The notes under the pieces are model-generated. The model did not search any database, was not told the DNA's origin, and saw only the letters and a program-made list of their open reading frames with translations. 64,000 nt of DNA from Bacteroidota bacterium (GTDB lineage: Bacteria > Bacteroidota > Bacteroidia > Bacteroidales > FEN-979): the NCBI GenBank assembly GCA_026391805.1, contig JAPLDJ010000015.1, positions 124,001 to 188,000 on the forward strand, in the 5' to 3' direction. Shown here in pieces: positions 4,006 to 26,126 of this stretch. How positions within the stretch are numbered: position 1 is the first letter of the stretch; the number at the start of each line of letters is the position of its first letter. The position numbers and the translations under genes are program-made.

Positions 4006-5262
4006 ATGAATAATAATCGTACATCCTGGATAAACGTTGAACCCGGAAGTGATTTCCCGATCCAGAACCTTCCGCTGGGAATTTTCAGTGTTCCGGGGAA
4101 AGCCCCTTCTGCCGCAACCAGGATCGGGGATACGGTGATCTCCCTTTATTCCCTTGCCAAAAGGTGCTTTTTCGAAAAAACAGGGATCGATCAGGAAGTA
4201 TTCAACAAACCGGAGCTGAATGATTTTATCGCCCTGGGTAAACCTGCATGGCATGGACTGAGAGAAAGTCTTTCGGAAATATTTCGGGCTGAGAATCTCC
4301 TGATGCGTGATTACATTCAGAACACCGAGGATATTCTTTCCCCGGTTCAGGATGTTGAAATGATGATGCCGGTGAAGGTGGGCGATTACACTGATTTTTA
4401 TTCCAGCATTGAGCACGCGACAAATGTCGGGATCATGTTCCGTGATCCTGCCAATGCACTTTTGCCGAACTGGCGCCATATTCCGGTTGGCTACCATGGG
4501 AGAAGCTCTTCCATTGTCGTTTCCGGAACACCCATCCACAGGCCAAAAGGGCAGACAAACCCGGGGAACAACGAGCCTGTCTTCGGCCCGACCAAAGAAT
4601 TTGATTTCGAACTCGAGATGGCTTTCATCACAGGGCAGGCAACACCGCTCGGAAGTTCAGTGTCCACAGCAGAAGCAGAAGACCATGTTTTCGGGCTTCT
4701 TCTTTTCAACGATCTTTCGGCACGGGATATCCAGCGGTGGGAATATGTACCGCTGGGGCCCTTCCTGTCAAAGAATTTCGGTTCGGTTGTTTCACCATGG
4801 ATCGTTACCCTCGAAGCGCTGGAGCCCTTCCGGGTTCCCGGACCTGTACAGGAGCCTGCTGTTCTTCCCTACCTGAAATTCAGCGGTGATAAGAATTTCG
4901 ACATTACACTGGACGTGCTCATTCAGCCTGAAGGAGCTGATCCGGCGAGGGTCTGCCGTTCCAACTTCAGATACATGTACTGGAACATGGCGCAGCAGCT
5001 GGCACACCAGACCGTCAACGGGTGCAACATCAACGTCGGTGATATGTATGGTTCCGGAACCATCAGCGGACCCACATCTGATTCATTCGGTTCAATGCTT
5101 GAAATTGCATGGAAAGGGACAAAACCGGTGACGATGGCAGATGGAACGACACGAACCTTCATCAACGATAACGATACCATTATCATGAAGGGCTTCTGTG
5201 AAAAGGATGGATTAAGGATCGGTTTCGGAGAAGTCGTAACAAAGATATTAGCTGCTATATGA
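4006..5262 (+). CDS. fahA: Fumarylacetoacetase
   Basis: 418 aa; DYTDFYSSIEHATNVGIMFRD, YHGRSSSIVVSG, FELEMAFITG, NDLSARDIQRWEYVPLGPFLSKNFG, GDMYGSGTISGP. Confidence 0.96.
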   Translation: MNNNRTSWINVEPGSDFPIQNLPLGIFSVPGKAPSAATRIGDTVISLYSLAKRCFFEKTGIDQEVFNKPELNDFIALGKPAWHGLRESLSEIFRAENLLMRDYIQNTEDILSPVQDVEMMMPVKVGDYTDFYSSIEHATNVGIMFRDPANALLPNWRHIPVGYHGRSSSIVVSGTPIHRPKGQTNPGNNEPVFGPTKEFDFELEMAFITGQATPLGSSVSTAEAEDHVFGLLLFNDLSARDIQRWEYVPLGPFLSKNFGSVVSPWIVTLEALEPFRVPGPVQEPAVLPYLKFSGDKNFDITLDVLIQPEGADPARVCRSNFRYMYWNMAQQLAHQTVNGCNINVGDMYGSGTISGPTSDSFGSMLEIAWKGTKPVTMADGTTRTFINDNDTIIMKGFCEKDGLRIGFGEVVTKILAAI

Positions 5263-5891
5263 CCAAAGAATTCATCCATTTCGATCCCCGGGAAACCCCG
5301 GTTCCCCTGTTTCATAAGCTGATGCTCGGTGCCGTGGCGCCGCGCCCGATCGCATTTGCCAGTACCATCGATAAAGACGGGCATCCTAATCTCTCCCCCT
5401 TCAGCTTTTTCAACGTTTTCGGGGCAAATCCACCAGTACTGATCTTCTCTCCATCACGACGCGGAAAAGATAATACCACCAAGCATACTTACGAAAATGT
5501 AAAGGAAGTTCCCGAGGTGGTGATCAACGTGGTGAACTATGCAATGGTTCAGCAGGTGAGCGATGCCAGCGCCGATTTCCCGAAAGGTGTCAATGAGTTT
5601 GAGATGGTTGGATTTACCATGGAGCCATCCGACCTTGTCAGGCCTTTCCGGGTTAAGGAATCCCCTGTCCAGCTGGAATGCAAGGTACTGCAGGTGATCG
5701 AGACCGGATTGAAGAATGCCGCCGGCAATCTTGTGATCTGCGAGATCCTGAAAATGCATGTTGATCCCGCAATCCTGGACGAGAACGGGCTGATCGATCA
5801 GAATAAAATCGATCTTGTGGGACGCCTTGGCGGAAATCATTATGTGAGAGCCTCGGGCAATGCATTGTTTGAGGTTAAAAAACCGGATTGA
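5259..5891 (+). CDS. Flavin reductase-like (FMN-binding split-barrel) protein
   Basis: APRPIAFASTIDKDGHPNLSPFSFFNVFGANPPVLIFSPS; ATGA overlap with fahA. Confidence 0.88.
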   Translation: MTKEFIHFDPRETPVPLFHKLMLGAVAPRPIAFASTIDKDGHPNLSPFSFFNVFGANPPVLIFSPSRRGKDNTTKHTYENVKEVPEVVINVVNYAMVQQVSDASADFPKGVNEFEMVGFTMEPSDLVRPFRVKESPVQLECKVLQVIETGLKNAAGNLVICEILKMHVDPAILDENGLIDQNKIDLVGRLGGNHYVRASGNALFEVKKPD

Positions 5892-5893
5892 TT

Positions 5894-7624
5894 ATGGAAA
5901 TGAACGAAATACTGGAGAGGCTGCCGAAGCATCTCCTCAGCCTTGTCATCGACCAGCCCTATAACTCCTATACGGTCCAGGACCATGCACTCTGGCGCTA
6001 TGTGATGAGGCAGAATGTACGGTACCTAAGCAAGGTTGCCCATGGTTCTTACCTGGACGGCCTCCGGAAAACCGGCATCAGCCTGGACCGGATCCCCATG
6101 ATGTACGGGATGAACCGCATCCTGCGCGAGATCGGGTGGGCTGCCGTGGCGGTTGACGGTTTCATTCCCCCGTCTGCATTCATGGAGTTCCAGGCGTACA
6201 ATGTGCTGGTCATCGCTGCCGATATCCGTCCCATCGACCAGATAGGATATACTTCTGCACCCGACATCATTCATGAGGCGGCAGGACATGCCCCGATCAT
6301 CGCTGATCCTGTTTATGCCGGTTACCTAAGACGGTTCGGGGAGATCGGCTGCAAGGCGTTTCCCTCCGGAAACGATTACAGGATGTACGAAGCCATCCGC
6401 CACCTTTCCATCCTGAAAGCAGATCCTTATTCCAACGCACAGATGATTGAAGAGGCTGAAAAGGCGATTGAACTTCTCGGGAAAAATCTCGGGGAACCCT
6501 CCGAACTGGCGCAGATCCGCAACCTTCACTGGTGGACCGTTGAATACGGACTGATCGGGGAGCTTTCAAATCCGCAGATCTACGGCGCAGGACTTCTTTC
6601 TTCCATCGCCGAAAGCTATTATTGCATGCAGCCAAAGGTGAAGAAAATCCCCTATTCGCTGGATGCGGTCAATTACAGTTTTGACATCACCGAACCCCAG
6701 CCGCAGCTTTTCGTGACGCCCGACTTCGAAACCCTGAACAGCGTGCTGGATGAATTTACAAGAACCATGGCCCTTTCAAAGGGAGGGGTGGACGGGATCC
6801 GCAAGGCCATCCGTTCGGAAAACACCGGGACCTCTGTTTACAGCTCCGGGCTGCAGGTTTCGGGAACATTCACCGATGTCATTGAAAAGAATGGCGAACC
6901 TGTCTACATCCGTACAACCGGCCTGACAAACCTGAATTTTTCCGGGAAGGAAATCCCCGGTCATGACAAACAATATCACAGGCACGGCTTCAGCTCACCC
7001 GTTGGCTGGATCATGGGACTAACCGCTCCTCCCGAAGATGCTACTGATGATGATCTTTCACGGCTCGGATTCAGTGCAGGAAAGAGTGTTGAATTTGAAT
7101 TTGAATCGGGACTGAAGGTCCGGGGAATTTTTCAGCGTGCATTGCGGAAAGAAGGAAAACTCATTCTCCTCAGCTTTTCGGAATGTGAAGTTACTTTTGA
7201 GGGGACGACGCTTTACCAGCTGGAATGGGGTCCTTTTGACATGGCCGTTGGCAGCAGCATTGTTTCCTGCTTCAGCGGCCCCGCCGACCCGGTGGCCTTC
7301 GGGTTGAATTACCCCGTTCCTTCAGAAAAAACACATAAGATCGAACACACAGAAAAAGCAATCAAACTTTTTTCCCTTTATCAGAAGGTCAGGGATCTCA
7401 GGGAACAGACCGATACTTCGGTTGATCTTTCCGGAGTTTGGGAAGCTCTGAATAAAGACCATCCCGGCGACTGGCTTTGCGCACTGGAGATCCTGGAACT
7501 GCTGAAAGACCGGAAAGAAGATCCTCTATACAAGGAGATCAATGATTTCCTGCAGAAACGTTCCGCCGAAAGCGAAATCTTCAGGAAGCTGATTGAGGAT
7601 GGGTTGGTTCTGATTGAGGACTGA
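5894..7624 (+). CDS. Aromatic amino acid hydroxylase (phenylalanine 4-monooxygenase-like) with long C-terminal extension
   Basis: Catalytic-domain motifs PDIIHEAAGHAPIIADPVYAGYLRRFGEIG and WTVEYGLIGE; ORF track starts at TTG 5888, ATG at 5894 preferred. Confidence 0.92.
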   Translation: MEMNEILERLPKHLLSLVIDQPYNSYTVQDHALWRYVMRQNVRYLSKVAHGSYLDGLRKTGISLDRIPMMYGMNRILREIGWAAVAVDGFIPPSAFMEFQAYNVLVIAADIRPIDQIGYTSAPDIIHEAAGHAPIIADPVYAGYLRRFGEIGCKAFPSGNDYRMYEAIRHLSILKADPYSNAQMIEEAEKAIELLGKNLGEPSELAQIRNLHWWTVEYGLIGELSNPQIYGAGLLSSIAESYYCMQPKVKKIPYSLDAVNYSFDITEPQPQLFVTPDFETLNSVLDEFTRTMALSKGGVDGIRKAIRSENTGTSVYSSGLQVSGTFTDVIEKNGEPVYIRTTGLTNLNFSGKEIPGHDKQYHRHGFSSPVGWIMGLTAPPEDATDDDLSRLGFSAGKSVEFEFESGLKVRGIFQRALRKEGKLILLSFSECEVTFEGTTLYQLEWGPFDMAVGSSIVSCFSGPADPVAFGLNYPVPSEKTHKIEHTEKAIKLFSLYQKVRDLREQTDTSVDLSGVWEALNKDHPGDWLCALEILELLKDRKEDPLYKEINDFLQKRSAESEIFRKLIEDGLVLIED

Positions 7625-7704: not shown

Positions 7705-8421
7705 TTAGAACGTAAAGTAATACGAAATCCCGACCACATAATCCGTTTCCGGGTGCTTCACGTTGTATTCTTTCCTGAAAAGATAATGAACATCCACCAT
7801 GTGCATCCGGTTGAAGGTATATTCAATCCCTCCGCAAAGCCTCAGCTGGTCGAACGAACCATAAACAATCCTGTTTAGCCGGAAGAAAGATTCGCCTTCA
7901 ATATACGGCACGAATTTCCGGTTAAGATCGAATTTCAGCGTCAGCTTTACCCTTGCATGATTGTCGGGAACAAACCCGTCTTCCGATGAATAGATGTTGC
8001 TGTATTCAGACTGGAACCTTGTCCTGAGCAGGAATGTAACCGGTTTTACCTTTTCCCTATAGCCCAGGTCAAAATAGTACCGGTGACGCTTATCATACGA
8101 ATCATCCACATTCCGCTGGTTTGAGAAACGATACCCTGCAGCTATCTTGAACCGTTTTCCAAGCCGGTATGAAAGGCTGAAATCGCTGAATATTGTGCCG
8201 ACTTCGGTGATGTTTTCGTTCAGCCTCACCTCTTCCGTGAAATGGGCGGAAAGAACAGGGGTGATCTTTTTCTCAATATTCAGGCTCGTCCACAATTGCG
8301 CATCGTTCACCTGTGCGAAGATCCCCTTCTGAGGAAACAGCAGACAGAGAAATAAGAAAACCGCCGGGATGACTTTTCGCATCCCGCAACTTTTTCTTTT
8401 ATGTCCGTACTGAAACTTCAT
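7705..8421 (-). CDS. DUF2490-type outer-membrane beta-barrel protein
   Basis: Signal peptide, NDAQLWTSLNIEKKITPVLSAHFTEEVRLNEN..., alternating beta-strand pattern, C-terminal Phe (YYFTF). Confidence 0.75.
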   Translation of the reverse strand: MKFQYGHKRKSCGMRKVIPAVFLFLCLLFPQKGIFAQVNDAQLWTSLNIEKKITPVLSAHFTEEVRLNENITEVGTIFSDFSLSYRLGKRFKIAAGYRFSNQRNVDDSYDKRHRYYFDLGYREKVKPVTFLLRTRFQSEYSNIYSSEDGFVPDNHARVKLTLKFDLNRKFVPYIEGESFFRLNRIVYGSFDQLRLCGGIEYTFNRMHMVDVHYLFRKEYNVKHPETDYVVGISYYFTF

Positions 8422-9171
8422 TTAATTAATGATCTTTCTGTGGTTCTTCCCGAATCTTTTTGCATAGTAATAAATCCTGACCCGTGCAGAATCCTTCAGG
8501 AAATCGATCCTGCTGATCGCAATCCTGTGAATGTCAAGCCCGGTTCTTTTCTTCAGGTCTTCGATCAGCAGCTCGCTGTTTTCAGGCTTTATCATTTCAA
8601 TGTTCTCATACTGGATCGTCTTCGACAACTCTTGCCTGAAAAGCAGGTTCCCGTCGAGGCAGAAGGCTACGCCAAAGATCACAGCATCCAGGATCGCCAG
8701 CTCGTAATAATCAAGCTGGATGGCGCTTATCAGTCCCATCGCAATAAAGAGGAACAGGTAGGTCATGTCTTTCATGGAGATCCCGGCAGTCCTGTAACGC
8801 AGGATGGAAAAGACCGCAAACAGGCCGAAGACGGCCCCCATTGAGAGTTTGATATATTTAAGCGTGAAGGTCAGCAGGAATATGATCAGATTGAACATGA
8901 TGAAGGTGAAGATGTAATCCAGCTTCCGGTAATTCGGGTAATAGATCAGGCTGATGATCAGCGCCACGGCCGCCATGTTGATGGCCAGGCTGATAAAGAA
9001 CTTTTCATCAAGCTCGAAGACTTTTTTCTTTTTTGCCGGTTTCGCTTCAACAGTTGTAGTTTCATCGGTTTGCAGCAGCTCCGTTTCCGACTGCTGTGCA
9101 ATACAAACCTTTACCGGCAGAGCCAGATAGAGAAAAAGGAAAACAACAAGAATGCTTTTAAAGGGCTTCAT
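8422..9171 (-). CDS. DUF4956 domain-containing membrane protein
   Basis: Four hydrophobic segments and the family-typical AVFSILRYRTAGISMKDMTYLFLFIAMGLISA; overlaps upstream gene by 14 nt. Confidence 0.82.
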   Translation of the reverse strand: MKPFKSILVVFLFLYLALPVKVCIAQQSETELLQTDETTTVEAKPAKKKKVFELDEKFFISLAINMAAVALIISLIYYPNYRKLDYIFTFIMFNLIIFLLTFTLKYIKLSMGAVFGLFAVFSILRYRTAGISMKDMTYLFLFIAMGLISAIQLDYYELAILDAVIFGVAFCLDGNLLFRQELSKTIQYENIEMIKPENSELLIEDLKKRTGLDIHRIAISRIDFLKDSARVRIYYYAKRFGKNHRKIIN

Positions 9172-9922
9172 GGTTGATATGATTAATGTGAATGAGTTTC
9201 TGTTTGAAATTATTCTGCTTGATCTCCTTGTTGAGACTGCAGATGCCGAGGCAATATTTACTGATCGAAAACGGGGTAATGTGATGTTCCCGGAGCAGGA
9301 GATGAAACGGAGATTGCTGCGACCGGGCCTGTTTCAGTTCAGCAACGACAAGACCGGGATACTTCTTTTCAGTTCCGTTATGGAGGAAATGAAGGTCGAT
9401 ATCCAGGGTGATCCGTTCCGTAAGGTTACTGTTCACAAGGGTGATCCGCGAGAAGTAAACACGGAGGGCCGGTTTCAGCGATTCCGGATCCAGCGGTGTG
9501 TGCCCGGCAAGTAATTTCAGTGCTTTCCCGCTGATCTCCTCTTTGATCTCTTTCCGTTTGATCCTGTTTTTGACCGTTCTTCCCTTGTTGTTTTTGAACT
9601 TGACCTCAAAGAAACTCTGGCCCGAATCAAGGTAAGATCTGCTGCGAACCTTAAACCGGTTAAGTTTTCCGTTGTGATGATGCAGGTAAAGGCGATGATC
9701 CTCCGTGTCGAAATAAAGGGTCTCATAACGGTTGAGCCTGATTCCATTGATCTCAAGGATCCGGTAATTTCCATCCAGGTCCCTGAGAAGAGGAAACAGC
9801 TTCGCGACCGGAAACACATACTTCCTGTCAACCCGGTCAAGCAGTTTCACAGCATCCATCTCTTCCAGCGTGATGGGGTTGAATGAACCGAGTATATCAT
9901 GAATTTCCGTCATCCGGTGCAA
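9158..9922 (-). CDS. VTC-like polyphosphate polymerase domain protein (CYTH superfamily)
   Basis: LLDRVDRKYVFPVAKL, YETLYFDTEDHRLYLHHHNGKLNRFKVRSRSYLDSGQSFFEVKFKNNKGRTVKNRI. Confidence 0.82.
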   Translation of the reverse strand: MHRMTEIHDILGSFNPITLEEMDAVKLLDRVDRKYVFPVAKLFPLLRDLDGNYRILEINGIRLNRYETLYFDTEDHRLYLHHHNGKLNRFKVRSRSYLDSGQSFFEVKFKNNKGRTVKNRIKRKEIKEEISGKALKLLAGHTPLDPESLKPALRVYFSRITLVNSNLTERITLDIDLHFLHNGTEKKYPGLVVAELKQARSQQSPFHLLLREHHITPFSISKYCLGICSLNKEIKQNNFKQKLIHINHINHEAL

Positions 9923-9927
9923 CAGGA

Positions 9928-10494
9928 TTAAAAATATTCGTATTCATATTTCTTTTCGGATTCAGGAATATTCGTCCCCGAAACGACCTTTTTGCCTGTC
10001 TTAAGGTTCTTTGCGTTATAGGTATAGGTGGTTTTTTTAGTAATCATCCCGGATCCATCGGAGATTGTTTCAGAAGCCTTGTTCCCATTGGCGTCATAGG
10101 TAAAAACCGTTTTCTTCATAACCGTTCCCGAGCCGTTGTATTCAACCTCCTCTGTCTTGTCCCTGAAAGCATTGTATTTAAAGGTACGGATGATCGTTTT
10201 TTTCTTTGCCACGTTGAATTCGGTCTCTTCGGTCTTGTTCTGGTAACTGTCGTATTTCGCCGTTTCCTTTTTCAGGATGGTGCCATCCGGCCCGTATTCA
10301 ATCTTTGTCAGGGTGTTGCCGTTCCGGTCATACTCTTCATAAGAGAATTTGTAGGTCGATGCCTTTCCGTTCTCATAAACCGTTTGCCACTCAGTAGCTG
10401 ATTTGATCTTTGACTTTTTCGCTTCCTTTTTCGATTGAGCCTGTACCGAAAAGACTATGACAAGGCTGGCGAGGATGATGATGATTTTTTTCAT
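9928..10494 (-). CDS. Exported YD/RHS-like repeat hypothetical protein
   Basis: Signal peptide; repeated EYDRNGNTLTKIEYGPDGTILKKETAKYDSYQNKTEE units. Confidence 0.6.
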   Translation of the reverse strand: MKKIIIILASLVIVFSVQAQSKKEAKKSKIKSATEWQTVYENGKASTYKFSYEEYDRNGNTLTKIEYGPDGTILKKETAKYDSYQNKTEETEFNVAKKKTIIRTFKYNAFRDKTEEVEYNGSGTVMKKTVFTYDANGNKASETISDGSGMITKKTTYTYNAKNLKTGKKVVSGTNIPESEKKYEYEYF

Positions 10495-10501
10495 GTCAGG
10501 A

Positions 10502-10906
10502 TTAATTAAAGATGACGATATCCGGCACTTCGATGTCGGCTTTTTTGTTTTTGGGGACGGAAACCTCCTTGATCACCGCAATGTCGGCGACAGACTGCAA
10601 GGTTGAATCCTTCGAGTAAGCATAGACATGATAGGAGCCGGGCCGCATGTACCTGAATTCGTATGTACCGTCATAATTTGTCCGTACACGGTCGCCATAA
10701 TCGCGGTCATCACCGTAAATTATGTAGACCCAGGTTTCGGGGGCGTAATATTCCTGCTCAAGAACAGTAAAGGTTGCATTGTAGTCCTTACAAAAAACCT
10801 TTCCGTAGATGGTCGATTTTCCACCGGGACCGGGCTCTTTTTTGCAGGAAAAAAGCACGGCACAGAGCAGGAGCAACAGAACGGGTGTCAGGATTTTTTT
10901 ATTCAT
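10502..10906 (-). CDS. Small lipoprotein with carboxypeptidase-regulatory-like fold
   Basis: Lipobox LFSCKKEPG; TNYDGTYEFRYMRPGSYHVYAYSKD; ATG at 10906 preferred. Confidence 0.6.
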   Translation of the reverse strand: MNKKILTPVLLLLLCAVLFSCKKEPGPGGKSTIYGKVFCKDYNATFTVLEQEYYAPETWVYIIYGDDRDYGDRVRTNYDGTYEFRYMRPGSYHVYAYSKDSTLQSVADIAVIKEVSVPKNKKADIEVPDIVIFN

Positions 10907-10943
10907 GGCGCAAAATATTGTTTTCAGTCGGTTTGATAACATA

Positions 10944-13223
10944 CTAATATTTGATGAACGTCCGGGTGATGACCCTGTCGCTGCAGAGTACCTTCAGAAC
11001 ATAGGCTCCTGCAGGGAACACCGATACGTCCAGGTCTTCGTTAATAACAGGAACCTGTTCCTTGTCGAATGAGCGCTCTTCATTCACCATCTGCCGCCCG
11101 CAGGCATCATAAACAGCGAGGGAAATCGGAGTCGTGTTGTTCTCCATTTCGATGTGGATGATCTCTTTTGCAGGATTGGGATAGAGCAGAATGTCGCTTT
11201 CAGGGGTGGTCCCGTAATAATTATATGCAGAAAAAGAAGGATGCATGAAGACGAAAGAACCGTATCCGTTCGGGTATCTGCCAAGTGATTTTCCCTTCAC
11301 CTGATTTCCAAATATAACAGAATCCATAATGATCCCGGAAGGATTTGAAAGCAGGATCTTTCCTCCGCTTTGATTCAGCAGATAACCTGCATGCAGGCCT
11401 TTATGCAATGTATCATAGTCAGCCCAAACGATAATGTATTTCCCTGTGCTGATCACAGTATCGGGGAATTCCCATTTGCAGGGATCCATACCATCCGAAA
11501 GACAAACGCCTTTCAGGTTCAGCTCTTCGCGGGTATTGTTGCAGAGTTCGATCCAGCTGCTGTAATTGCCCTCCTCGTTCGCGATGGTAGTATTCAGCAC
11601 CTCAAATTCATTGATCGCAACATCGGCTTTTCCGATCAGCGGCTGGATCGAATAATATTCATATTCGGCCCGTGCAGGGGAAAATGCCCCGGCACTGTCA
11701 TTTTCGGCCCAGAGATAATAGTGAAGAACATGACCTGAAGGAATGACGGAAGCTCCGAAACCACCATCACCGGCGGCGCCGTCATGGTGGTTTCCGTCAT
11801 CAAACATTATTACGTTCCGGAAGATGTCATAGCTTTTTTCCCTGTATGAAAGAACCACCTTTGCGGCATTCTGCACCGTAGCTGTGATCCATGTCTCTTC
11901 TCCTTTTCGTGGTGCATCGGGCTGATGGCTTATGTCAGTAATTGAAGGAGCACCACGGATCCCCGGGTAGGTGTCGAGGTAGGCTATCCTTGCTTCCACC
12001 AGGTCCTTCAGCCCCGGGTATTTAAGCATCGTTCCCGTGCCTCCTACCGTGGAATCGAGGTTATGTTTGAAATCAGCATAGGAATAGAATTTATTCGGAT
12101 CCTGCTGCACGCTGGCATCGATGAACTCCTGGATCTCCTCTCCCCGGTTGTAATATTCATTGGTCTTGAAATTTTCATCGATGATCGTACGAATATGTGC
12201 CAGGTATTTTTTCCTGTAAGTATCATTCCTGAACAGGTTGACCATCAGCGGACGGGGTGAAACGCAGAAGTTGAGGTGCTCCAAGGGATCCAGCACTTTT
12301 TCCTCATCGATCGTGAGGCCGGTAAAATGTGAAGAGCCGTCGGAATTCCGGAAGCTTCCGAACGACATGTTCATGTCCCACAGGATCGGGTTGAAGCGGC
12401 CGTTATCGTCTTTGTAGATATAGTAATTCTGGGAATAGCCGATGTAGCTGTCAAGGTTCAGCAGGGCGAAATTGAACGCATGCATCCAAAGGGCCCGGTC
12501 GGTGTTCAGAACGGATTCGACACTGTCGGGCATTTCATTCAATATATAGATAAAGTCCAGCAGCTCTTTCCATCCGTAATCGGATTCCGCTTCATAATAG
12601 GGCATATAGCCGGTAGTGTCTGTTCCGTGTGTATAAGCCAGGTTTGCATTCTGGCCGAACGGATAAACGAGGTGCTGCGGCGATCCTTTGAAAAAGGCGT
12701 TTCCGTTTGAAGGAAAATAGTCCAGGATGAATTTCCTGTTCACCGATTCAACATTGGTATAAAGACCTGTCAGCGTATCGTTGATGTAGAGGTTCGCGAA
12801 ATTCGCATGGGATGCAGGCATGTATTTCCGGGCGATCTCGTATGAGAGCGCCTCCCTGACAAAAGAGGGATCATCGATCACATTGCTCAGCTTCAGGTTG
12901 GTGTAACCCTGATAGTTTCGGTTATTCTGCGAATACTGCAGGTCGATGTTGAACGGATTTTTCATTTCATCCGTGTTCACCGAGCTGTATCCTTTATATC
13001 GGATCCCGGCGCCGGCAATGGTTTTCCCGTCGATGGTCACATCCCCCAAAATGCGTCCGGTGCCGTCGCCGGTAAAGATCAGGCTGTCGAGAAGGTGTTT
13101 CCAGTTTTTATCCCTGAATGTGATCCGGATCTCCGGGATCCGGTTGATATCATAAAGATCATCCTGGGCGTGGAGGCCCGTGAATGTCAATAAAAGTACC
13201 AGCAGGATGAACGTTTTTTTCAC
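10944..13223 (-). CDS. CotH kinase family protein with lamin-tail-like domain and T9SS C-terminal sorting domain
   Basis: GAGIRYKGYSSVNTDEMKNPFNIDL, YYIYKDDNGRFNPILWDMNMSFG; lamin-tail-like INEFEVLN...SSWIELCNNTREELNL; C-term LLYPNPAKEIIHIE...RTFIKY. Signal peptide fits a GTG start at 13223; the track's 13265 start is TTG. Confidence 0.87.
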   Translation of the reverse strand: MKKTFILLVLLLTFTGLHAQDDLYDINRIPEIRITFRDKNWKHLLDSLIFTGDGTGRILGDVTIDGKTIAGAGIRYKGYSSVNTDEMKNPFNIDLQYSQNNRNYQGYTNLKLSNVIDDPSFVREALSYEIARKYMPASHANFANLYINDTLTGLYTNVESVNRKFILDYFPSNGNAFFKGSPQHLVYPFGQNANLAYTHGTDTTGYMPYYEAESDYGWKELLDFIYILNEMPDSVESVLNTDRALWMHAFNFALLNLDSYIGYSQNYYIYKDDNGRFNPILWDMNMSFGSFRNSDGSSHFTGLTIDEEKVLDPLEHLNFCVSPRPLMVNLFRNDTYRKKYLAHIRTIIDENFKTNEYYNRGEEIQEFIDASVQQDPNKFYSYADFKHNLDSTVGGTGTMLKYPGLKDLVEARIAYLDTYPGIRGAPSITDISHQPDAPRKGEETWITATVQNAAKVVLSYREKSYDIFRNVIMFDDGNHHDGAAGDGGFGASVIPSGHVLHYYLWAENDSAGAFSPARAEYEYYSIQPLIGKADVAINEFEVLNTTIANEEGNYSSWIELCNNTREELNLKGVCLSDGMDPCKWEFPDTVISTGKYIIVWADYDTLHKGLHAGYLLNQSGGKILLSNPSGIIMDSVIFGNQVKGKSLGRYPNGYGSFVFMHPSFSAYNYYGTTPESDILLYPNPAKEIIHIEMENNTTPISLAVYDACGRQMVNEERSFDKEQVPVINEDLDVSVFPAGAYVLKVLCSDRVITRTFIKY

Positions 13224-13281
13224 AGTGATCAATTGAGGGGGTCTTTGATCCGTTCTTAAAGGCAAAATAAGGCTATTCAGA

Positions 13282-14484
13282 TCACCGGATCACTATTTTC
13301 CTGGAAATTGTCTGATTTCCCTGGCTGATCTGTAAAAAGTAAAGGCCCGGTGTCAATGTTTCGGTACCGATCGTCTCCATACCCCCGCTGGAGGACCGGC
13401 TGAGGCGAATCTGGCCTGTCATGTCAACAAGGACAAGCCGGGCCTTGTTTTCCAAATTGGTTATGTTAATACAGGTTGATGCAGGATTCGGGTAAACAGC
13501 AATGTCTGAATCATCCTGATAAAGAGCTGTTCCGGAATTGTTCATGGTCACTTTTGAGACGCCGTTCCCTGTAGCAACCCAGGCATTATTCTGCTGATCG
13601 ACGGCCACTCGCTTTACGAGGTTGTTCACCAGCGAATCGGCCATGGTAAAAGAGGTCCAGGCCGTGCCGGTGAACCTTGTGATGCCTCCGTCCTGGAGGT
13701 AATCATTGTACAATCCTGCCCAGAGTACATCCTTTGAATCAAAGGCAAGATCCCGGACGAAGTCGTTGTACAGTCCGTCAACGGTGGAATAATTAACCAT
13801 CCAATGGTCGTTGCTGTCAAAAACTGAGATGCCGCTGAGGGTTCCGATCCATTTTTTTCCTTTGGAATCGATGGCAACCGACATGATGTTATTGTCGGGC
13901 AGGCTGTCGGCCGTCGTGAAGGTGGTAAACGTGGAGTTGTCATACCTGGCAAGTCCTCCGATCCATGTGCCGATCCATTTGATTCCCGAAGGATCAACCT
14001 TTATATAACTGACCAGGTCGTTGGGCAACCCGTTTGCACTGGTAAAATTGGTCCATACAGAACCGTCGAACTTAGATAATCCTCCATTCGTCCCAATCCA
14101 GACACTCCCGTCAATATCGCCTGCAATGTAGTTGATCATGCTGTTGACAAGACCATTGGCGGTTGTATAGGAAGTCCATGCCGTACCGTTGAATTTGCTT
14201 ACCCCGAAGTCGGTCCCGACCCAGATGTTGTTGTTTTTATCAACGGCGATGCAGTTGATGTAATTATCGATCAGCCCGTCGGCCGTGGTGTAATAAACCC
14301 ATGTAGAATCGGTGAATTTTGCCACACCAAGTTGTGTGCCGAACCATTTGTTGTTGTCGTTATCGATCGCAACACCATTAACGGTGTTGGAGGGAAGTCC
14401 GTTGCCGGTCCTGAAGTTGGTGAATGTCTGCGCCCCGAGGGTCAAGGCAGAAATAACAAAGATGCTGATGAAAAGTGATTTCAT
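13282..14484 (-). CDS. Two-component-regulator-type beta-propeller protein with T9SS C-terminal domain
   Basis: Repeated WxxYTTADGLxxNxINxIAVDxxxNxWxGTxxGVSKF blades; C-term VYPNPASTCINITN...SRKIVIR. Confidence 0.85.
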   Translation of the reverse strand: MKSLFISIFVISALTLGAQTFTNFRTGNGLPSNTVNGVAIDNDNNKWFGTQLGVAKFTDSTWVYYTTADGLIDNYINCIAVDKNNNIWVGTDFGVSKFNGTAWTSYTTANGLVNSMINYIAGDIDGSVWIGTNGGLSKFDGSVWTNFTSANGLPNDLVSYIKVDPSGIKWIGTWIGGLARYDNSTFTTFTTADSLPDNNIMSVAIDSKGKKWIGTLSGISVFDSNDHWMVNYSTVDGLYNDFVRDLAFDSKDVLWAGLYNDYLQDGGITRFTGTAWTSFTMADSLVNNLVKRVAVDQQNNAWVATGNGVSKVTMNNSGTALYQDDSDIAVYPNPASTCINITNLENKARLVLVDMTGQIRLSRSSSGGMETIGTETLTPGLYFLQISQGNQTISRKIVIR

Positions 14485-14494
14485 AATCCGGGGG

Positions 14495-16714
14495 TTATTT
14501 GGTAAGAATAATTTTTCGCGTGAAGAGAACATTGGAATCTGTCGAGATGATAAGATAATAGATGCCTGCATTAAATCCGGATAAATCGACCTGTGAACTG
14601 TTTTCAGACTGAAGCAGGATTTTTCCGCAGATATCGGATACCTTCACCCGGTAACCGTTAATTTTCTGTGCTTTTACATGGATGATCCCGGACGTCGGAT
14701 TAGGATAGATCAGGATGGATTCCTTCGTATTTTCAACTACTCCGGTGATCACTACGGGCGCAGATAATGCCGAAGAGCATCCATTTACTGTGACCTGAAC
14801 CTGGTACGATCCTGCCTGTGAAGGCACATAGTACTGCCCGGTAGCGCCTGTGATCAGGTTCCCGTCGAGGAACCACTGGTTGCCGGCCGGGGCACTCGAA
14901 ACCAGTGAATCGCCCGTTTTTGTTACGGTTGGAGTGGCCGGGGCCGGATTTACGGTGATGGTCACTTCGTTAGTGGTAACGGTGCCGCAGCTGCCACCGG
15001 AGATCTGTTGCTGGCGGTATCGGGTAGTTTCCGTCAGGGCAGGCGGCTGGTAATTCAGTCCGGTTGCTCCGCTGATATCTTCCCATGCGGATGCTGTTGA
15101 ATTCCATTTCTGCCACTGGTAAGTATAGGGTGTGATTCCTCCAGCCGGGGCTGTACCGGTGAGTTGGGCCGGCGTGATCCCGGAGCAGACGGTCTGGGTG
15201 CCGGAGATGGAGCCCGCCATGAATTGAGGCGATACGATAACGGTAACGGAATCTGTAGCTGAACACGGGCCATTGGTAACTGTTACAATATAGGTGGTCG
15301 TGACCAGCGGAGATACCACGGGATTATGGATGGTTGATGTAAACCCGGCAGGAACCGATGTCCAGGACCAGGTATAAGCAACACCGCCGGTGATGGAGAC
15401 ATCCAGCTGGGAGGAACCTCCTCCGTAACAGAGAGAGGATGGAGTAGCACTGGCAGTGGCGGAATAGGTGCCGGTAACATAGCAGGGAGGATACCTGAAC
15501 GATTGCGCAATCGTACCTCCTACAGTCTTCGACCAGACCTGGATCTGGTTGGAATCGATCTCATAGATGAACCCATTCATCCCGGCGCATACCAGGGTAT
15601 TTCCGTTGGGCAGCTGCTGTGAATTCCCGTTGTCCGGCTGCTGGTTGCCGGAATAGGTATGCCGCCAGTTATAGGTTGACGGGGCATAGGCATTGCCCGG
15701 TGTGTAAAGGTAATTGTACCCGTTGTATGGCGGCGTGAAGATATCAATGCAGGTCTTGTTTCCTGCACCACCCTTATTGTTGTATCCGCAAAGAGAGTTC
15801 GGAAAACGGGGACTGCTCATCGGAACCCAGTGCGCATCATGAACCACATTGAAATCAGCGCTTCCCGGTGCCTGGTAGGCCTGGGGATTCCCCCACCGGT
15901 AAAGGAAATCGCCGCCTTTGCCTGAATTTCCGCCCGCATGACTGGCCGCCTGCGCGGTGGTCGTGCTGTGATCAATCACATAGACCTCGTTCAGGCTGTG
16001 GGAACTGAACGTGATCTGGTTGAGTTGCTCGTTGAAGTCGATCCCGTTTACATGCATCCAATCCTTCGTTGTAATGTAATTAATGTTAAGCAATTCCGGA
16101 TGGGTTGCGACGGCCCCGTAATTGTTCTTGGAGACATCATATTCCTGTACGAGGTGATCCCAGGCATGCCATTCCCAGACGACCGTGCCGCCGTTGGTTC
16201 CCGAAGGCTGGATCTCGACAATTTTATCCGGCCACATCTCTATGCTTTGTGAACATCCTGCCTGTGTCACTTCGGCAGGTGTCTTGCGTTCATAAGCGAT
16301 CAGCAATACATTGCCGTTGGGCATCGCACAAATATCATGGTGTGTGCAATAATTCGTGGTTGAATAAACAAAATCCCATAAGATATTCCCGTTGTAGTCC
16401 ACTTTCTGAACCTCCCCCGAGATTGGACCGCCGTTAAATGAATTTCCTGGATGATTTACGGTTCTTAAGACCACACCGCCGGAAAGCAGGTAAGAAGCAT
16501 AGGTGGTCTGGGATGAAAATGTCCATTGATGATAGGTGCTCCCGCTCAGATCAATGAGGTACGCCTTCGTACCATTCTGGGGAAAGTAAAATGTATATCC
16601 GTCATACGACTGTCCCGATGCGGAAGCCATTGATGCGAAGAGTACCAACATTAAAAAGATACCTCTGAAAGAAGGAAAAAACTGTTTTCCTGGTTTGGGA
16701 GATTTTGTTTGCAT
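14495..16714 (-). CDS. Aryl-sulfate sulfotransferase-like protein with PKD-like modules and T9SS C-terminal domain
   Basis: GYTFYFPQNGTKAYLIDLSGSTYHQWTF, HHDICAMPNGNVLLIAYE, VVWEWHAWDHLVQEYD, HSLNEVYVIDHSTT; C-term IYPNPTSGIIHVK...RKIILTK. Confidence 0.83.
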   Translation of the reverse strand: MQTKSPKPGKQFFPSFRGIFLMLVLFASMASASGQSYDGYTFYFPQNGTKAYLIDLSGSTYHQWTFSSQTTYASYLLSGGVVLRTVNHPGNSFNGGPISGEVQKVDYNGNILWDFVYSTTNYCTHHDICAMPNGNVLLIAYERKTPAEVTQAGCSQSIEMWPDKIVEIQPSGTNGGTVVWEWHAWDHLVQEYDVSKNNYGAVATHPELLNINYITTKDWMHVNGIDFNEQLNQITFSSHSLNEVYVIDHSTTTAQAASHAGGNSGKGGDFLYRWGNPQAYQAPGSADFNVVHDAHWVPMSSPRFPNSLCGYNNKGGAGNKTCIDIFTPPYNGYNYLYTPGNAYAPSTYNWRHTYSGNQQPDNGNSQQLPNGNTLVCAGMNGFIYEIDSNQIQVWSKTVGGTIAQSFRYPPCYVTGTYSATASATPSSLCYGGGSSQLDVSITGGVAYTWSWTSVPAGFTSTIHNPVVSPLVTTTYIVTVTNGPCSATDSVTVIVSPQFMAGSISGTQTVCSGITPAQLTGTAPAGGITPYTYQWQKWNSTASAWEDISGATGLNYQPPALTETTRYRQQQISGGSCGTVTTNEVTITVNPAPATPTVTKTGDSLVSSAPAGNQWFLDGNLITGATGQYYVPSQAGSYQVQVTVNGCSSALSAPVVITGVVENTKESILIYPNPTSGIIHVKAQKINGYRVKVSDICGKILLQSENSSQVDLSGFNAGIYYLIISTDSNVLFTRKIILTK

Positions 16715-19918: not shown

Positions 19919-20806
19919 TCAGTCGCGGATGCATCTCACTGACATTCCGTTGCGCTTATCGCCGATATCAAGAACAAAAGTGGCATCGGACCTAAAAAGA
20001 TAACCTTCATAGGACATCGTGCCGTCATAAGCCGTTGTCGTCCACCAGAGTCCGTAATCACCGTTTGACCACCATGTTCCGTTGTAGAGCCTGTAACCGC
20101 CTCCGAAACCGGAGAAGCCGCTTGTATTGGTTGCAGAATTATTAGGGGCAGTCCAGTTCAGAAGAGCTTTGGCTTTACCGCCACCAGTACCTGCTCCGCC
20201 GAGGTAACTTATCAGTGTATTGAAATCATCGTAAGTCGGGACATGCCACCCGGGTGCACAGATTTTCCGGCTATCGGTAACGGCATACCAGTTATAAAGT
20301 GCTCCATAGATGTTTTTATAAGTAGATGGATCATTGGCATAATAGCAATAACCGGCTGTGGCAAGGTTGCCCCAGGCCGTATTATCGGTCACATTGCTGA
20401 CGGCCGAACCATCAAAGAAATGTGTCGTCTTCAGGTTTTCGGCCATCCATTCCTGTTCGCCGATCTTCACAGTGGTATAGGCATTCCCGTCGGCATCGAT
20501 CATGTGTCCGCCACCGCCTTGGTTTGTTCCCAGGTAAACCCATGCCGTGCCGTTATAAACATAAAACCCGGTCGGTACTTCGTTCTGGTAAACGATCAGG
20601 CCGGCTGCCGGGGAGCTGATGCCGGTCCGCTGGGAGGCGCTCATCCGCGGGATCAGCAAACCTTTCGAAGTCGATTTCACATCCAGCATGGCGCTGGCAT
20701 CGGGGTTGGAATTGTCGGTGTTAATGGCTACCTGACCGGAGCCGGAAAGTACAAAATTCATTATGAACACAATGATCAGCGTCAGAGGGAAAAGTCGTTT
20801 CTTCAT
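19919..20806 (-). CDS. FISUMP domain-containing exported protein
   Basis: MLDVKSTSKGLLIPRMSASQRTGISSPAAGLIVYQ; WMAENLKTTHFFDGSAV, YGALYNWYAVTDSRKICAPGWHVPTYDDF, GMSVRCIRD. Confidence 0.88.
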   Translation of the reverse strand: MKKRLFPLTLIIVFIMNFVLSGSGQVAINTDNSNPDASAMLDVKSTSKGLLIPRMSASQRTGISSPAAGLIVYQNEVPTGFYVYNGTAWVYLGTNQGGGGHMIDADGNAYTTVKIGEQEWMAENLKTTHFFDGSAVSNVTDNTAWGNLATAGYCYYANDPSTYKNIYGALYNWYAVTDSRKICAPGWHVPTYDDFNTLISYLGGAGTGGGKAKALLNWTAPNNSATNTSGFSGFGGGYRLYNGTWWSNGDYGLWWTTTAYDGTMSYEGYLFRSDATFVLDIGDKRNGMSVRCIRD

Positions 20807-20852: not shown

Positions 20853-21740
20853 TCAATCACGGACGCACCGTACGGATAGTCCTGAAACTCTGGACGGATA
20901 ATACATGTACAGTCCGGAATAGGAGCCATCAAAATTGTAAACGATAACCATATTGTCGTATCTCAGGTTGGGCGTGCCCCAGTAAGCATCCTCTCCCATA
21001 TAATAAAAGCTTCCGTTGGAATCATAGCGCAGTCCGCCCGGCCGGCCGGAAAACCCCGTAGTGTTCATCCCGAAATTTGTCGATGATGCTGCCATCATCC
21101 TGGCCCCAGCCCAACCGACGGCTCCCCCGAGGTAATTATTCAGTGCGGTGAAATCAGCAGCCGTGGCAGCATGCCACCCTGAAGGGCAAAGGTTCCTGCT
21201 GTCGGTAATGGCGTACCAGTTATAGAGGGCGCCGTACAGGCTTTTATTACTGATTGCGTTATTGTACCAGCAGTAAGCGCCTGAAGTGAGGTTGATCCAT
21301 GAGGAATTGTCCGTTACGTTCGGGATGGCGTCCCCGTTCCGGTAATGTGTGGTCTTCAGGTTCTCAGCCATCCATAACTGGTTGCCGATTTTTACCGTCC
21401 GGTATATGTTTCCTTCGATATCGGCAACATGCATTGAGATTCCTTCAGCCGTTCCCAGCGCGGTCCATGCAGTGCCGGAATAATAATAAAATCCGGTGGT
21501 GGCATCCGTCTGGTAGACCAGCAGTCCGGCTGCCGGTGAAGCAATAGCTGTTCGCTGGGCTGCTGTCATCCGCGGCGTCAGCATCCCTTTTTGCGTGGAT
21601 TTGACATCAATGGCAGAACTTTGATCAGGTAGAGAGCCATCGGTATTTATGCTTATCTGGCAGTACAAATTCTGGTTTGCCGGAAGTGTAAAAAGAACGG
21701 GGAGGATGATCTTGAGCAATGTTTTCTTGAGCTGATTCAT
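20853..21740 (-). CDS. FISUMP domain-containing exported protein (paralog of previous)
   Basis: Same architecture; WMAENLKTTHYRNGDAIPNVTDN, YGALYNWYAITDSRNLCPSGWHAAT, GLSVRCVRD; ATG at 21740 gives a signal peptide. Confidence 0.88.
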   Translation of the reverse strand: MNQLKKTLLKIILPVLFTLPANQNLYCQISINTDGSLPDQSSAIDVKSTQKGMLTPRMTAAQRTAIASPAAGLLVYQTDATTGFYYYSGTAWTALGTAEGISMHVADIEGNIYRTVKIGNQLWMAENLKTTHYRNGDAIPNVTDNSSWINLTSGAYCWYNNAISNKSLYGALYNWYAITDSRNLCPSGWHAATAADFTALNNYLGGAVGWAGARMMAASSTNFGMNTTGFSGRPGGLRYDSNGSFYYMGEDAYWGTPNLRYDNMVIVYNFDGSYSGLYMYYPSRVSGLSVRCVRD

Positions 21741-21948
21741 TTTCTTCAGTAATGATTTCGGACAAAAATATGCTTTGAAAACCCACATGTAAAATAATGG
21801 TCGGACGGATTTGTAAATCTGCACATTTTGTGATCAAAAAAAAGCCTTCTTCAGGAGTTCGTATAATGAAAAGCTGGTCATGAACGATTCAATGGCTTCC
21901 TGCATTATGATAAATTTTTCAGTAATATTGCACTATTATCCATGTCGT

Positions 21949-22667: not shown

Positions 22668-22691
22668 TTCGCTTTTCGCTTTTCGCTATTT
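22660..22691. repeat. Iterated TTTCGCTAT/TTTTCGC word array overlapping the adhesin stop codon (copy 1)
   Basis: ttcgctatttcgcttttcgcttttcgctattt. Confidence 0.8.
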
Positions 22692-25600
22692 ATTTACAAG
22701 TATCTTCCTCACCACCTGGTTATCGGCGTTGCGGAGGATCACGGTGTAGATACCCGAAGGAATCGGACGCAGGTCAACGACCTTTTCAACAGTTCCCTTC
22801 ACCTGGATATCCTTCTGCTGGTAAATCGTTACTCCCAGGTTGTTAAGCACGCTGAGTGTGAATGATTCACTTGAAGAACTCGTAATGGAGACCTTGAACT
22901 GTCCGTCGTTCGGTACAGGATAGATCGAAATGCCGGATCCGCTTGGGGAATTGACACCAACCGTGATGGTAATATGGTTCGACTCTCCGGAAACGCATCC
23001 GTTGATGGTGACAATATCCGAATAAACTCCAGGCAGGGTTGCAACGTAGGTCTGTCCTGTAGCCCCTGTAATGGCCGATCCGTCAAGATACCACTGGTTG
23101 CCGGTTGGGGCATCGCTTGAAAGCGTCAGCCCGGATACGGTGATCACCGGGGTAGGCACTGCGGTCACGGTAACTGCTAACGGAGGTGAAGTTGCCCCGT
23201 TGCCGCAGGTGCTGTTTGCATAAACCGTGATGTTACCTGATGATGCACCAGCAGGATAATCAACTGTAATGGTATTTGAATATAGTCCTGAAACGATGTT
23301 AGCTCCGGCCGGTAATGTCCAGATATAGGAGTGGGCATTCGGGATCGTTGCAACAGAATAGGTTTTACCAGTTTCGCCGTCACAGATGTTGGAAGGACCC
23401 GTAATGGAACCTGCCGCTCCCGGTAAACCAAGAACAGAGACAGGTAATGTAAAGGGTGCCGGGGACGCACAACCGGCCCCATTGGTATAATTAACGCTGA
23501 TGGTCTGAGGACCGCTGCTGTTCCAGGATACGGTTGCCGTGTTTGTAGTCCCGCCGAAGTTGATGGTTCCTCCGGATGATATCGTCCAGTTATAACCCGT
23601 CATGCTGGCCTGTGTGGTATAGGTCTGGTATCCTGAATTGACACAAACCACGCCTGGTCCGCTGATACTGGGAGAAGGACCTTGCTTCACCGTAACCGGA
23701 TATGCTGATGGCGCTGAACTTGTACAACCATTGGCATTGGTATAGACCACATTGGCACTTTGTGCCCCGGATGCAGTCCAGAGTACCGTTACCGAGTTGG
23801 TACCCTGGCCCGTCTGGATCGTACCACCTGCAGAAGTTGTCCAATTATATCCGGTCATCCCTCCCTGAGTTGTATAAACGGTTGTCAGCCCTGAACAGGG
23901 GTTGGCATCCCCTGCAATGACCGGCACCGGCAACGGGTTGACGGTAACGTTTACAGAGGCCGGGGTAAGTCCGGCGCATCCATTGGCATTGTTATAATTT
24001 ACAGAGATGGTCCTTGCTCCGGCCGATGTCCAGGTGACAGTTGCAGTATTACTGGTTGCAATTCCTCCTGCAGTTGCAGTTCCCCCAGTGATTATCCAGG
24101 CATAGCCTGTCATACCAGCCTGGGTTGTGTATACATTGCCGGCAACGTTGACACATGCGGCTGTCGGCCCGGTAAGCGTAGGCGTGGCCGCTGCATTTAC
24201 ATATAAGGGCATGTAAGATGGGGTTCCGTTCCCGGCACATCCGACCCCGTAAACAGATACGTTCCCGGAAAATGAGGGATTCGGGAAGGAAACCGTGATG
24301 GTGTTGGTATTCGCTCCGGCCGTGATGGTGGCGCCGAAAGGAACCGACCAGGTGTAACCTGTGGCATTGGCGATTGCAGCTACAGTGTAAACATACCCTG
24401 ATCCTCCGTTACAAACCTGGCTGGGCCCTGTGATCGCTCCTGCAGCACCGGCAGTAAGGCAAACTGTGAAGAAGGTCAGGTCGCCTCCATAGCTGGTCCC
24501 TGCAGTATTAACTCCTTTAGCCCGGAAATGATAAGTCTGGTTGGAAGTGAGGCCGGCAATGTTGGCGCTGAAGTTTGTTGAGATCATACCGGCAATTGGT
24601 GACGGAATTCCAGGTGCAGTGCTTCCGTAGGCTGTTGTCAAACCATATTCGAAAGAAACCGTTGTGGATGAATTGTTGGCCACACAGGATCCGTTCAGAG
24701 TAGCGGCCGCATTTGTTACACCGGTTGCCGCCAGGGTTGTGATAAGAGGTGCAATAGTCGCTGTGGTAAAGGTCAGATCGCCCCCGTTGGAGGTTCCGTA
24801 AGTGTTCACACCATTGATCCTGAAATGATAGAGGGTGTTCGGGAGCAGGCCGATAATGCCGGCGTTCACGGCCGTCACGGTAGTTCCGTTAACGGTCAGG
24901 GGAACCCCGGGAACATTGGTGCCGTAAGCCGTTGTCAGTCCGTAATCAAAGGAAGTAGTCGTGGCGGCATTGTTGGCATTGACTGTTCCGTTCAGCGTTG
25001 CGGTGGTGCCGGTAATAGCAACGGCCGCTGTTGTCACCACAACCGGTGGTCCCCCGGCAAACGGGATCAGGTTGGCTGTGAAATCCCCGCAATTCCCATA
25101 GGTATAAGCCCCGCATGGATTCTGCGAGGAGGAGGCATAATTACACACAAACCGCATCCGGTGGCTGCCTGTCGTAGTCCCCAGCGGAATGTTGATCGTG
25201 GCGGTGAAATTCGTAGCGCTACTGGAGCAGTAAAGATCGGTAACAACCCTTTCAGTGGCAGCAAAAGTGTTGTCGTTGTTGTAATCGATCCATACGCAAA
25301 CATATTGAGAAGGAAATCCGACCTGAACTGTCAGTGTATAGTTGGTGTTCAGCATGAGGGTTGTGGAGGTCGTTGTCCAGTCATGGTACCAGGGATTAGG
25401 AACCCCGTTGCAGGCAACGACCTGGTTTATAGTATTGAGGTTGAAAAGGGTCAGTCCGTCTCCATAACTGCAACCTGTCGAAAAGGTTGGCAGGCAAGGC
25501 CCGGCAGATGCCAGGTTAACGGTAAAATCCTCACAATTTCCGAAGGTCACCGGGCCGCAGGGACCGGTGGGGTAGCCATAATATTCAGTAATCGCCCTCA

Positions 25601-26000
25601 TGCGGGTAGCGCCAGACAGTGCGGCACCGGGAACAGTAAAGGGGATGGCGTAGTTGGTTGCGGAAGCGGCACAGATAACCTGCCCGACCATTTCCCCGGC
25701 ATCAGCAAAAGAATTGTTGTGGTTGTAGTCGATGTAAAGATTGACATATGTATTGGGATAGCCAGCCTGTACCGTTACAGAATAAGCACTCCCAATGGTC
25801 AGGTTGGTGGATGATGCCGTATAATCATGGTAGAAGGCAGTGCAGGTGATCGTCTGGTTAATGGTGCCAAGCTGGAAAAGGGTCAGCCCGTCTCCGTAAG
25901 AACATCCGTAAGTACTGGTCGGAGTGCAATATTGTGCCATCGCACCACTGCAGAAAAGCATCAATATAAATACGGAAAAGATCTTGTAAAGTTTCTTCAT
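22686..26000 (-). CDS. Large T9SS cargo adhesin: two GEVED domains, Fn3-like repeats, PKD-like repeats, C-terminal sorting domain (tandem copy 1)
   Basis: Repeated CxPTxxxGCSYGDGLTLFxLxTINQ...NCEDFTVNL; ATLNGTVNANNAATTTSFDYGLTTAYG repeats; C-term ISIYPVPNDGQFKVSI...RKILVNK; ATG at 26000 gives a signal peptide. Confidence 0.88.
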   Translation of the reverse strand: MKKLYKIFSVFILMLFCSGAMAQYCTPTSTYGCSYGDGLTLFQLGTINQTITCTAFYHDYTASSTNLTIGSAYSVTVQAGYPNTYVNLYIDYNHNNSFADAGEMVGQVICAASATNYAIPFTVPGAALSGATRMRAITEYYGYPTGPCGPVTFGNCEDFTVNLASAGPCLPTFSTGCSYGDGLTLFNLNTINQVVACNGVPNPWYHDWTTTSTTLMLNTNYTLTVQVGFPSQYVCVWIDYNNDNTFAATERVVTDLYCSSSATNFTATINIPLGTTTGSHRMRFVCNYASSSQNPCGAYTYGNCGDFTANLIPFAGGPPVVVTTAAVAITGTTATLNGTVNANNAATTTSFDYGLTTAYGTNVPGVPLTVNGTTVTAVNAGIIGLLPNTLYHFRINGVNTYGTSNGGDLTFTTATIAPLITTLAATGVTNAAATLNGSCVANNSSTTVSFEYGLTTAYGSTAPGIPSPIAGMISTNFSANIAGLTSNQTYHFRAKGVNTAGTSYGGDLTFFTVCLTAGAAGAITGPSQVCNGGSGYVYTVAAIANATGYTWSVPFGATITAGANTNTITVSFPNPSFSGNVSVYGVGCAGNGTPSYMPLYVNAAATPTLTGPTAACVNVAGNVYTTQAGMTGYAWIITGGTATAGGIATSNTATVTWTSAGARTISVNYNNANGCAGLTPASVNVTVNPLPVPVIAGDANPCSGLTTVYTTQGGMTGYNWTTSAGGTIQTGQGTNSVTVLWTASGAQSANVVYTNANGCTSSAPSAYPVTVKQGPSPSISGPGVVCVNSGYQTYTTQASMTGYNWTISSGGTINFGGTTNTATVSWNSSGPQTISVNYTNGAGCASPAPFTLPVSVLGLPGAAGSITGPSNICDGETGKTYSVATIPNAHSYIWTLPAGANIVSGLYSNTITVDYPAGASSGNITVYANSTCGNGATSPPLAVTVTAVPTPVITVSGLTLSSDAPTGNQWYLDGSAITGATGQTYVATLPGVYSDIVTINGCVSGESNHITITVGVNSPSGSGISIYPVPNDGQFKVSITSSSSESFTLSVLNNLGVTIYQQKDIQVKGTVEKVVDLRPIPSGIYTVILRNADNQVVRKILVNK

Positions 26001-26126
26001 GGTTTTTGGTTTTTGGTTTATTATTAAATACAAGATATAGGATCAACTACAAAAAATGAAGTAGCTAATTATATATGAATGCTGATTTTCATTTTCTGAA
26101 CCTTCATGTTTTATTTGGCAGCAAAA

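Follow-up and report, generated by a model that had tools for sequence, protein, structure and literature searches.

We describe a run of eight minus-strand genes at positions 7705 to 16714 of a 64,000-nucleotide stretch of a Bacteroidota genome (the window), built around a VTC protein and a membrane protein of family DUF4956. Bacterial polyphosphate is usually credited to PPK enzymes. Here we find a VTC protein of the eukaryotic polymerase type, its active site intact, to be widespread among bacteria; it occurs in some archaea too and is nearly always tied to DUF4956. From the sequences we propose that the operon is a prokaryotic VTC-type polymer synthase-translocase joined to a surface module, whose product, probably polyphosphate, would leave through the envelope; we give this proposal an even chance of being right. 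If it holds, it would describe a dedicated bacterial route for making and exporting polyphosphate and a source of surface or extracellular polyphosphate. It would also give a role to DUF4956 and DUF2490 and make the phosphate supply of secreted kinase-like proteins testable.

The gene run

The run is read from the high-coordinate end. From first to last gene it comprises the following, where T9SS denotes the type IX secretion system, TTM the triphosphate tunnel metalloenzymes, and scores are Pfam bits:

14495 to 16714, minus strand: ASST-like protein (arylsulfotransferase family) with a T9SS tail, first gene (Arylsulfotrans 58.8 bits, Arylsulfotran_2 41 bits)
13282 to 14571, minus strand: Reg_prop beta-propeller with a T9SS tail, likely start ATG at 14484 (Reg_prop, Por_Secre_tail)
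10944 to 13265, minus strand: CotH kinase-like protein with a lamin-tail domain and a T9SS sorting tail (PF08757 145.9 bits, cut-off 23.8; LTD, Por_Secre_tail)
10502 to 10942, minus strand: small lipoprotein, 146 residues, CarboxypepD_reg/SdrD-like beta-sandwich (lipobox LFSC; weak CarboxypepD_reg match)
9928 to 10494, minus strand: 188-residue exported protein with a weak YD/RHS-like repeat (marginal match; found at 11 family loci)
9158 to 9922, minus strand: VTC/TTM (CYTH-fold) protein, 254 residues, proposed polyphosphate polymerase (PF09359 94.6 bits, cut-off 23)
8422 to 9171, minus strand: DUF4956 membrane protein, proposed translocator (PF16316 163.8 bits, cut-off 30.6)
7705 to 8421, minus strand: DUF2490 protein, putative outer-membrane barrel (TC 1.B.81), last gene (PF10677 91.8 bits, cut-off 29.8)

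The genes are separated by 0 to 16 nucleotides, and VTC and DUF4956 overlap by exactly the 14 nucleotides given in the original prediction, which was made from the window's letters and open reading frames. Its four domain assignments (VTC, DUF4956, DUF2490, CotH) all lie above the Pfam cut-offs, and the small lipoprotein that it listed is there. Its YD-repeat exported protein is real as a gene, while the repeat itself is marginal (20.0 bits in Pfam against a cut-off of 22; 17.4 in NCBIfam against 15.8). The prediction counted seven genes and ended at 13223. That end fits an in-frame GTG start of CotH, whose longest frame begins at TTG 13265; the extent was too short, because the ASST-like gene, outside those coordinates, belongs to the conserved unit. 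A nominal overlap of 77 nucleotides between the propeller and ASST-like genes disappears if the propeller starts at ATG 14484. The propeller protein also matches the T9SS protein PorZ in NCBIfam with 79.8 bits, a strong score that is below the cut-off of 260.

The gene that follows DUF2490 codes for a biopterin-dependent hydroxylase and is convergent with the run. Within the assembly (3.9 Mb, 28 contigs), VTC, DUF4956, CotH and DUF2490 have a single match each, all inside the run. No RNA families are found in the window (Rfam); promoter scores there are no better than those of shuffled sequence, and terminators score slightly above shuffles.

Active site and fold of the VTC protein

In the PDB, a profile built from 23 VTC homologues picks out Vtc4 and Vtc2 alone (3g3q, E 1.9e-18); a search with the single sequence returns short repeat matches only. 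All 14 of the Vtc4 tunnel residues that we checked are identical in the window protein. Given as Vtc4/window, they are R196/R30, K200/K34, R264/R93, R266/R95, E279/E106, K281/K108, K294/K118, R296/R120, R361/R159, R373/R170, D377/D174, E426/E195, K428/K197 and K458/K222. Three of these, R264, R266 and E426, are residues whose substitution served to inactivate Vtc4 (PMC9911596). An AlphaFold2 model of the protein (pLDDT 85, pTM 0.84) has the Vtc4 polymerase structures 3g3r and 3g3q as its best Foldseek matches in the PDB (E 4.7e-13, TM-score 0.66 to 3g3r), with ygiF, thiamine triphosphatase and other TTM proteins ranked below. Because the tunnel residues are intact and Vtc4 is closest by both profile and model, polymerase chemistry appears the likeliest activity, judged from active site and fold. 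In the bacterial proteins position 32 is acidic, against threonine in Vtc4, which gives a partial ExExK motif. No SPX domain is seen in the 254-residue window protein, for which VTC is the only Pfam match above cut-off.

At L015 / L049 of one genome (G136) the VTC domain lies within an open frame of 761 to 778 residues; this may be a fusion, or else a long frame left unmasked in DNA rich in GC.

DUF4956 as the partner of VTC

The original prediction took DUF4956 for the membrane partner of VTC, which agrees with both the sequences and the literature. In a survey of 149 genomes sampled across phyla, VTC occurs in 29, every one of which also has DUF4956 (46 genomes in total). Of 14 well-known control genomes, Bacteroides ihuae, Corynebacterium glutamicum and Methanosarcina acetivorans have both families and the others neither. 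The VTC-DUF4956 pair looks obligate.

The protein is laid out as a signal or first helix, four further transmembrane helices and a cytosolic alpha-beta domain, according to sequence and an AlphaFold2 model of moderate quality (pLDDT 73); R125 and R127 are invariant. Sequence search of the PDB with DUF4956 gives nothing significant. The family divides into a mainstream and a window-type subfamily. In local profile comparison the mainstream subfamily aligns with MgtC over its full length (184 columns, 94.4%, E 9e-8), against 0.5 to 2.7% for unrelated membrane families used as controls, and 46 of 59 mainstream members show a weak Pfam match to MgtC. The window-type subfamily scores 96.4% to the mainstream, but 0.2% directly to MgtC, and the window protein has no match to the MgtC family PF02308. 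Mainstream DUF4956 is therefore a remote relative of MgtC by sequence, and the window protein is linked to it transitively, through the mainstream alone. Vtc1/DUF202, considered as an origin of DUF4956, is ruled out by hhalign profile comparison (0.6%), and a genome search finds no DUF202 in the window's genome.

Envelope parts exchanged between lineages

To describe the neighbourhoods we use 80 VTC loci from one scan of 85,462 species genomes, a sample that rests on a single VTC pattern and is biased towards the VTC subfamily it describes. They come from Bacteroidota, Ignavibacteria, KSB1, Latescibacterota, Calditrichota, Zixibacteria, Krumholzibacteriota, Neomarinimicrobiota, Chloroflexi and Eisenbacteria. 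Together with survey and plasmid loci this makes 103 typed loci, a few of which are the same contig fetched twice; gene calls were made mechanically.

DUF4956 adjoins VTC in 99 of the 103 loci and a membrane-fusion adaptor does so in 77; the adaptor profile matches MexA, MacA and EmrA proteins in the PDB. DUF2490 adjoins the VTC-DUF4956 pair in nine loci, none of which has an adaptor beside VTC, so that adaptor and DUF2490 are mutually exclusive there (0 of 103 with both). Among VTC-bearing plasmid records, which come from Bacillota and Actinomycetota, 6 of 6 have DUF4956 adjacent, 4 of 6 have CotH and 0 of 6 have an adaptor or DUF2490 beside the pair. The envelope parts thus swap by lineage. 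Most diderms have an adaptor, accompanied by TolC or not; the window's lineage has DUF2490; monoderms have neither. One locus (L050) holds CotH, DUF4956, adaptor, TolC and VTC consecutively. The co-occurrence of VTC and DUF4956 with CotH and DUF2490 reaches far beyond close relatives. What the original prediction had overlooked, besides the eighth gene, is the relation of DUF4956 to MgtC, the adaptor and TolC partners found elsewhere and the mutual exclusion of adaptor and DUF2490.

DUF4956 also occurs in sets that lack VTC, with an adaptor and either a TolC-type channel or a 410-residue protein replacing the channel. In one family, all eight genomes read (L187-L194) have DUF4956, an HlyD-type adaptor and the 410-residue protein in the TolC position, near YceI, DUF6580, BrkB and an SDR gene. 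Both versions of the module stand together at L121:4865-14497, where adaptor, VTC and DUF4956 come first, an SdiA-regulated-like gene lies next, and DUF2490 with a DUF4956 of the window type comes after it; CotH flanks the group.

Conservation in the window's taxonomic family

DUF4956 is present in 14 of 43 genomes of the window's taxonomic family. The locus is patchy, since none of the four other members of the window's genus has DUF4956. We read the 13 other family loci. Eight of them (L176-L179, L181-L183, L186) keep all eight genes with order and strand unchanged, and the grouping is therefore beyond chance. The remaining five comprise two cut by contig ends, two of a more distant type and one reduced locus, L184, which retains only the lipoprotein, YD, VTC, DUF4956 and DUF2490 genes. 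VTC is about 41-57% identical to its window counterpart, the propeller about 46-53% and the ASST-like protein about 58-71%, and the small gaps and overlaps are preserved.

Homologues of the 188-residue exported protein and of the lipoprotein each hold the same position in 11 family loci, and the ASST-like gene does so in eight family genomes. The lipoprotein is also found directly upstream of VTC at two more distant loci (L035 and L039). Most family loci (L176-L178, L180-L182, L185, L186) carry two genes downstream of DUF2490, a pair that is absent from the window; in L186, the one locus in which the pair was checked, it is a histidine kinase and a LytTR response regulator (8714-10521, Pfam).

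CotH beside VTC

The original prediction named VTC, DUF4956 and CotH as neighbours in other bacteria, correctly and in line with published work (PMC7112168). CotH lies within 8 kb of VTC in 28 of the 103 loci. In the first neighbour clustering, the cluster was only partly labelled CotH and was joined by T9SS tails; we recounted CotH with a trimmed domain model. The 29 VTC-carrying survey genomes hold 118 CotH matches in 117 Mb, about 1 per Mb (summed by hand from search tables). At least seven survey loci have CotH within 8 kb of VTC where 0.54 would be expected, about 13 times expectation (p 1.7e-6).

Eleven positions are conserved in 75% or more of 35 CotH domains, and the window CotH retains every one, E173, D272, N280 and D297 among them. 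On residues, then, both the VTC and the CotH proteins are intact where the original prediction asked for it, and with the distant co-occurrence described above neither of the two refuting conditions that it named was borne out. A PDB search with CotH finds matches to T9SS tails only. Because of its T9SS tail, the protein is probably located outside the cell, where ATP is scarce.

Proposed working and rival explanations

In the proposed synthase-translocase, the cytosolic VTC protein would polymerise phosphate from ATP, as Vtc4 does. DUF4956 would thread the growing chain across the inner membrane, in the position that Vtc1/DUF202 has in yeast although from a different, MgtC-related family. In diderms a further carrier would take it outward: an HlyD-type adaptor, sometimes with a TolC-type channel, in most lineages, and in the window's lineage the DUF2490 barrel as exit; monoderms have no such part. 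At the surface, the T9SS-secreted CotH, propeller and ASST-like proteins and the lipoprotein may use the polymer, anchor it or modify it. The strongest hint that the product goes outward is the exchange of envelope parts between lineages. A more specific idea, which we regard as quite improbable, is that the secreted CotH takes its phosphoryl group from the exported polyphosphate, or from its end-group, and phosphorylates surface proteins or matrix outside the cell. With polyphosphate as the CotH donor, the linkage of a kinase-like outside protein to a phosphate-polymer synthase, in monoderms as well as diderms, would be explained.

Several observations weigh against a synthase-translocase for polyphosphate. 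The VTC-less sets of DUF4956, adaptor and channel mean that the apparatus need not carry polyphosphate, and they are the main reason to be careful, as DUF4956 could act on other substrates or in an MgtC-like regulation. A separate PPK1 encoded elsewhere in the window's genome, apart from the run, could supply polyphosphate independently of this locus. Enzymes of the same TTM fold can be triphosphatases or cyclases. The window has no adaptor beside VTC and the eight-gene run no TolC-type gene; the moderate DUF4956 model has no fold match in the PDB; and the linkage of CotH to VTC is frequent without being universal.

One alternative is that the polyphosphate made by VTC stays internal or acts as a signal, with DUF4956 regulating in the manner of MgtC by sensing or limiting phosphate or ATP use and the surface proteins forming the regulated output (matrix or adhesion). 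The 94% full-length match of mainstream DUF4956 to MgtC speaks for this, given that MgtC proteins act as regulators, not channels. So does the LytTR two-component pair downstream in family members, as well as the Gram-positive set, which stands next to genes for Pel exopolysaccharide (PMC7112168) and for other polysaccharides. A purely internal regulator would however not lead one to expect export parts such as the adaptors and TolC-type channels found next to DUF4956, and we think this alternative rather unlikely. We find it distinctly unlikely that the TTM enzyme makes or cleaves some other triphosphate compound (as a triphosphatase, a cyclase or in phosphate transfer to lipid or glycan), with DUF4956 and the envelope parts exporting or assembling a phosphorylated surface glycan. 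The model does match ygiF, thiamine triphosphatase and putative adenylate cyclases as well, all members of the same fold; the module occurs in Gram-positive polysaccharide clusters (PMC7112168), and the acidic position 32, a partial ExExK, departs from Vtc4. Yet the sequence profile finds Vtc4 and Vtc2 and no other TTM proteins, Vtc4 is also best by structure, every basic tunnel residue checked is kept, and the window run contains no glycosyltransferase.

Finally, the run could be an ordinary T9SS cargo operon in which VTC, DUF4956 and CotH stand together by chance or common regulation, with no shared biochemistry. T9SS-tail proteins are indeed abundant in the window and three run genes are of that kind. 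This explanation is disfavoured, and we hold it to be very improbable: the eight-gene order is kept at roughly 45-70% identity, and CotH lies near VTC about 13 times as often as expected and does so in Gram-positives too, which have no T9SS.

Relation to known systems

The yeast VTC complex (Vtc4/Vtc3/Vtc1) resembles the proposed synthase-translocase in its TTM polymerase domain, with the same tunnel residues and the closest fold, and in tying a cytosolic polymerase to a small multi-helix membrane partner. Unlike it, the window protein lacks SPX and a transmembrane region of its own, its partner is DUF4956 and not DUF202/Vtc1, and the operon adds envelope and secreted parts.

In Gram-positive Pel loci, cotH, a poly-phosphate polymerase, DUF4956 and DUF4832 are reported as accessory genes without a function (PMC7112168). 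The grouping of VTC, DUF4956 and CotH is thus already in print, contiguous as in the window. The window differs in that it has no pel genes in the run (its flanks are the biopterin hydroxylase, fumarylacetoacetase and an M16 peptidase) and no DUF4832 was found there, while it adds the T9SS-tailed CotH, the lipoprotein, the ASST-like protein, the propeller and DUF2490. In Gram-positives the VTC module is also found within polysaccharide gene clusters. In Clostridium perfringens NELoc-2, VTC proteins are each followed by a membrane protein of 222-226 residues annotated 'tubulin', then CotH, HEAT and a glycosyltransferase (PMC2879425). The 'tubulin' is probably DUF4956. The gene order equals that of a Planococcus plasmid (L131); unlike the window, this monoderm version has no outer-membrane part and includes a glycosyltransferase.

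In one gut member of the Bacteroidota, DUF4956 adjoins DUF2490 as in the window: the B. thetaiotaomicron pair BT3498-BT3499 appears in an iron-expression table only (-7.6-fold, P 0.175; PMC10434189). Unlike the window's genome, the control Bacteroides genome has no CotH. One paper lists DUF2490 among putative porin families, with its function unknown (PMC4827864), and the putative barrel nature of DUF2490 rests on this; the original prediction's outer-membrane barrel agrees with this listing and with the sequences. In the literature we searched, which did not cover subscription journals and preprints, we found no paper on a DUF4956-MgtC link, a DUF4956-adaptor link or the eight-gene T9SS operon.

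Other genes of the window

Positions 4006-7624 hold genes of aromatic amino acid degradation, fumarylacetoacetase and the biopterin-dependent hydroxylase, with a flavin-reductase-like gene between them (assigned by eye). Tandem Fib_succ_major proteins lie at 19919-20806 and 20853-21824, with 143 of 286 aligned residues identical. A pair of giant T9SS proteins in tandem follows at 22686-26033 and 26335-29646. Pfam finds GEVED and PKD-like domains in the first, and the two proteins are identical at 963 of 1103 aligned residues, which by sequence marks the pair as a recent duplication.

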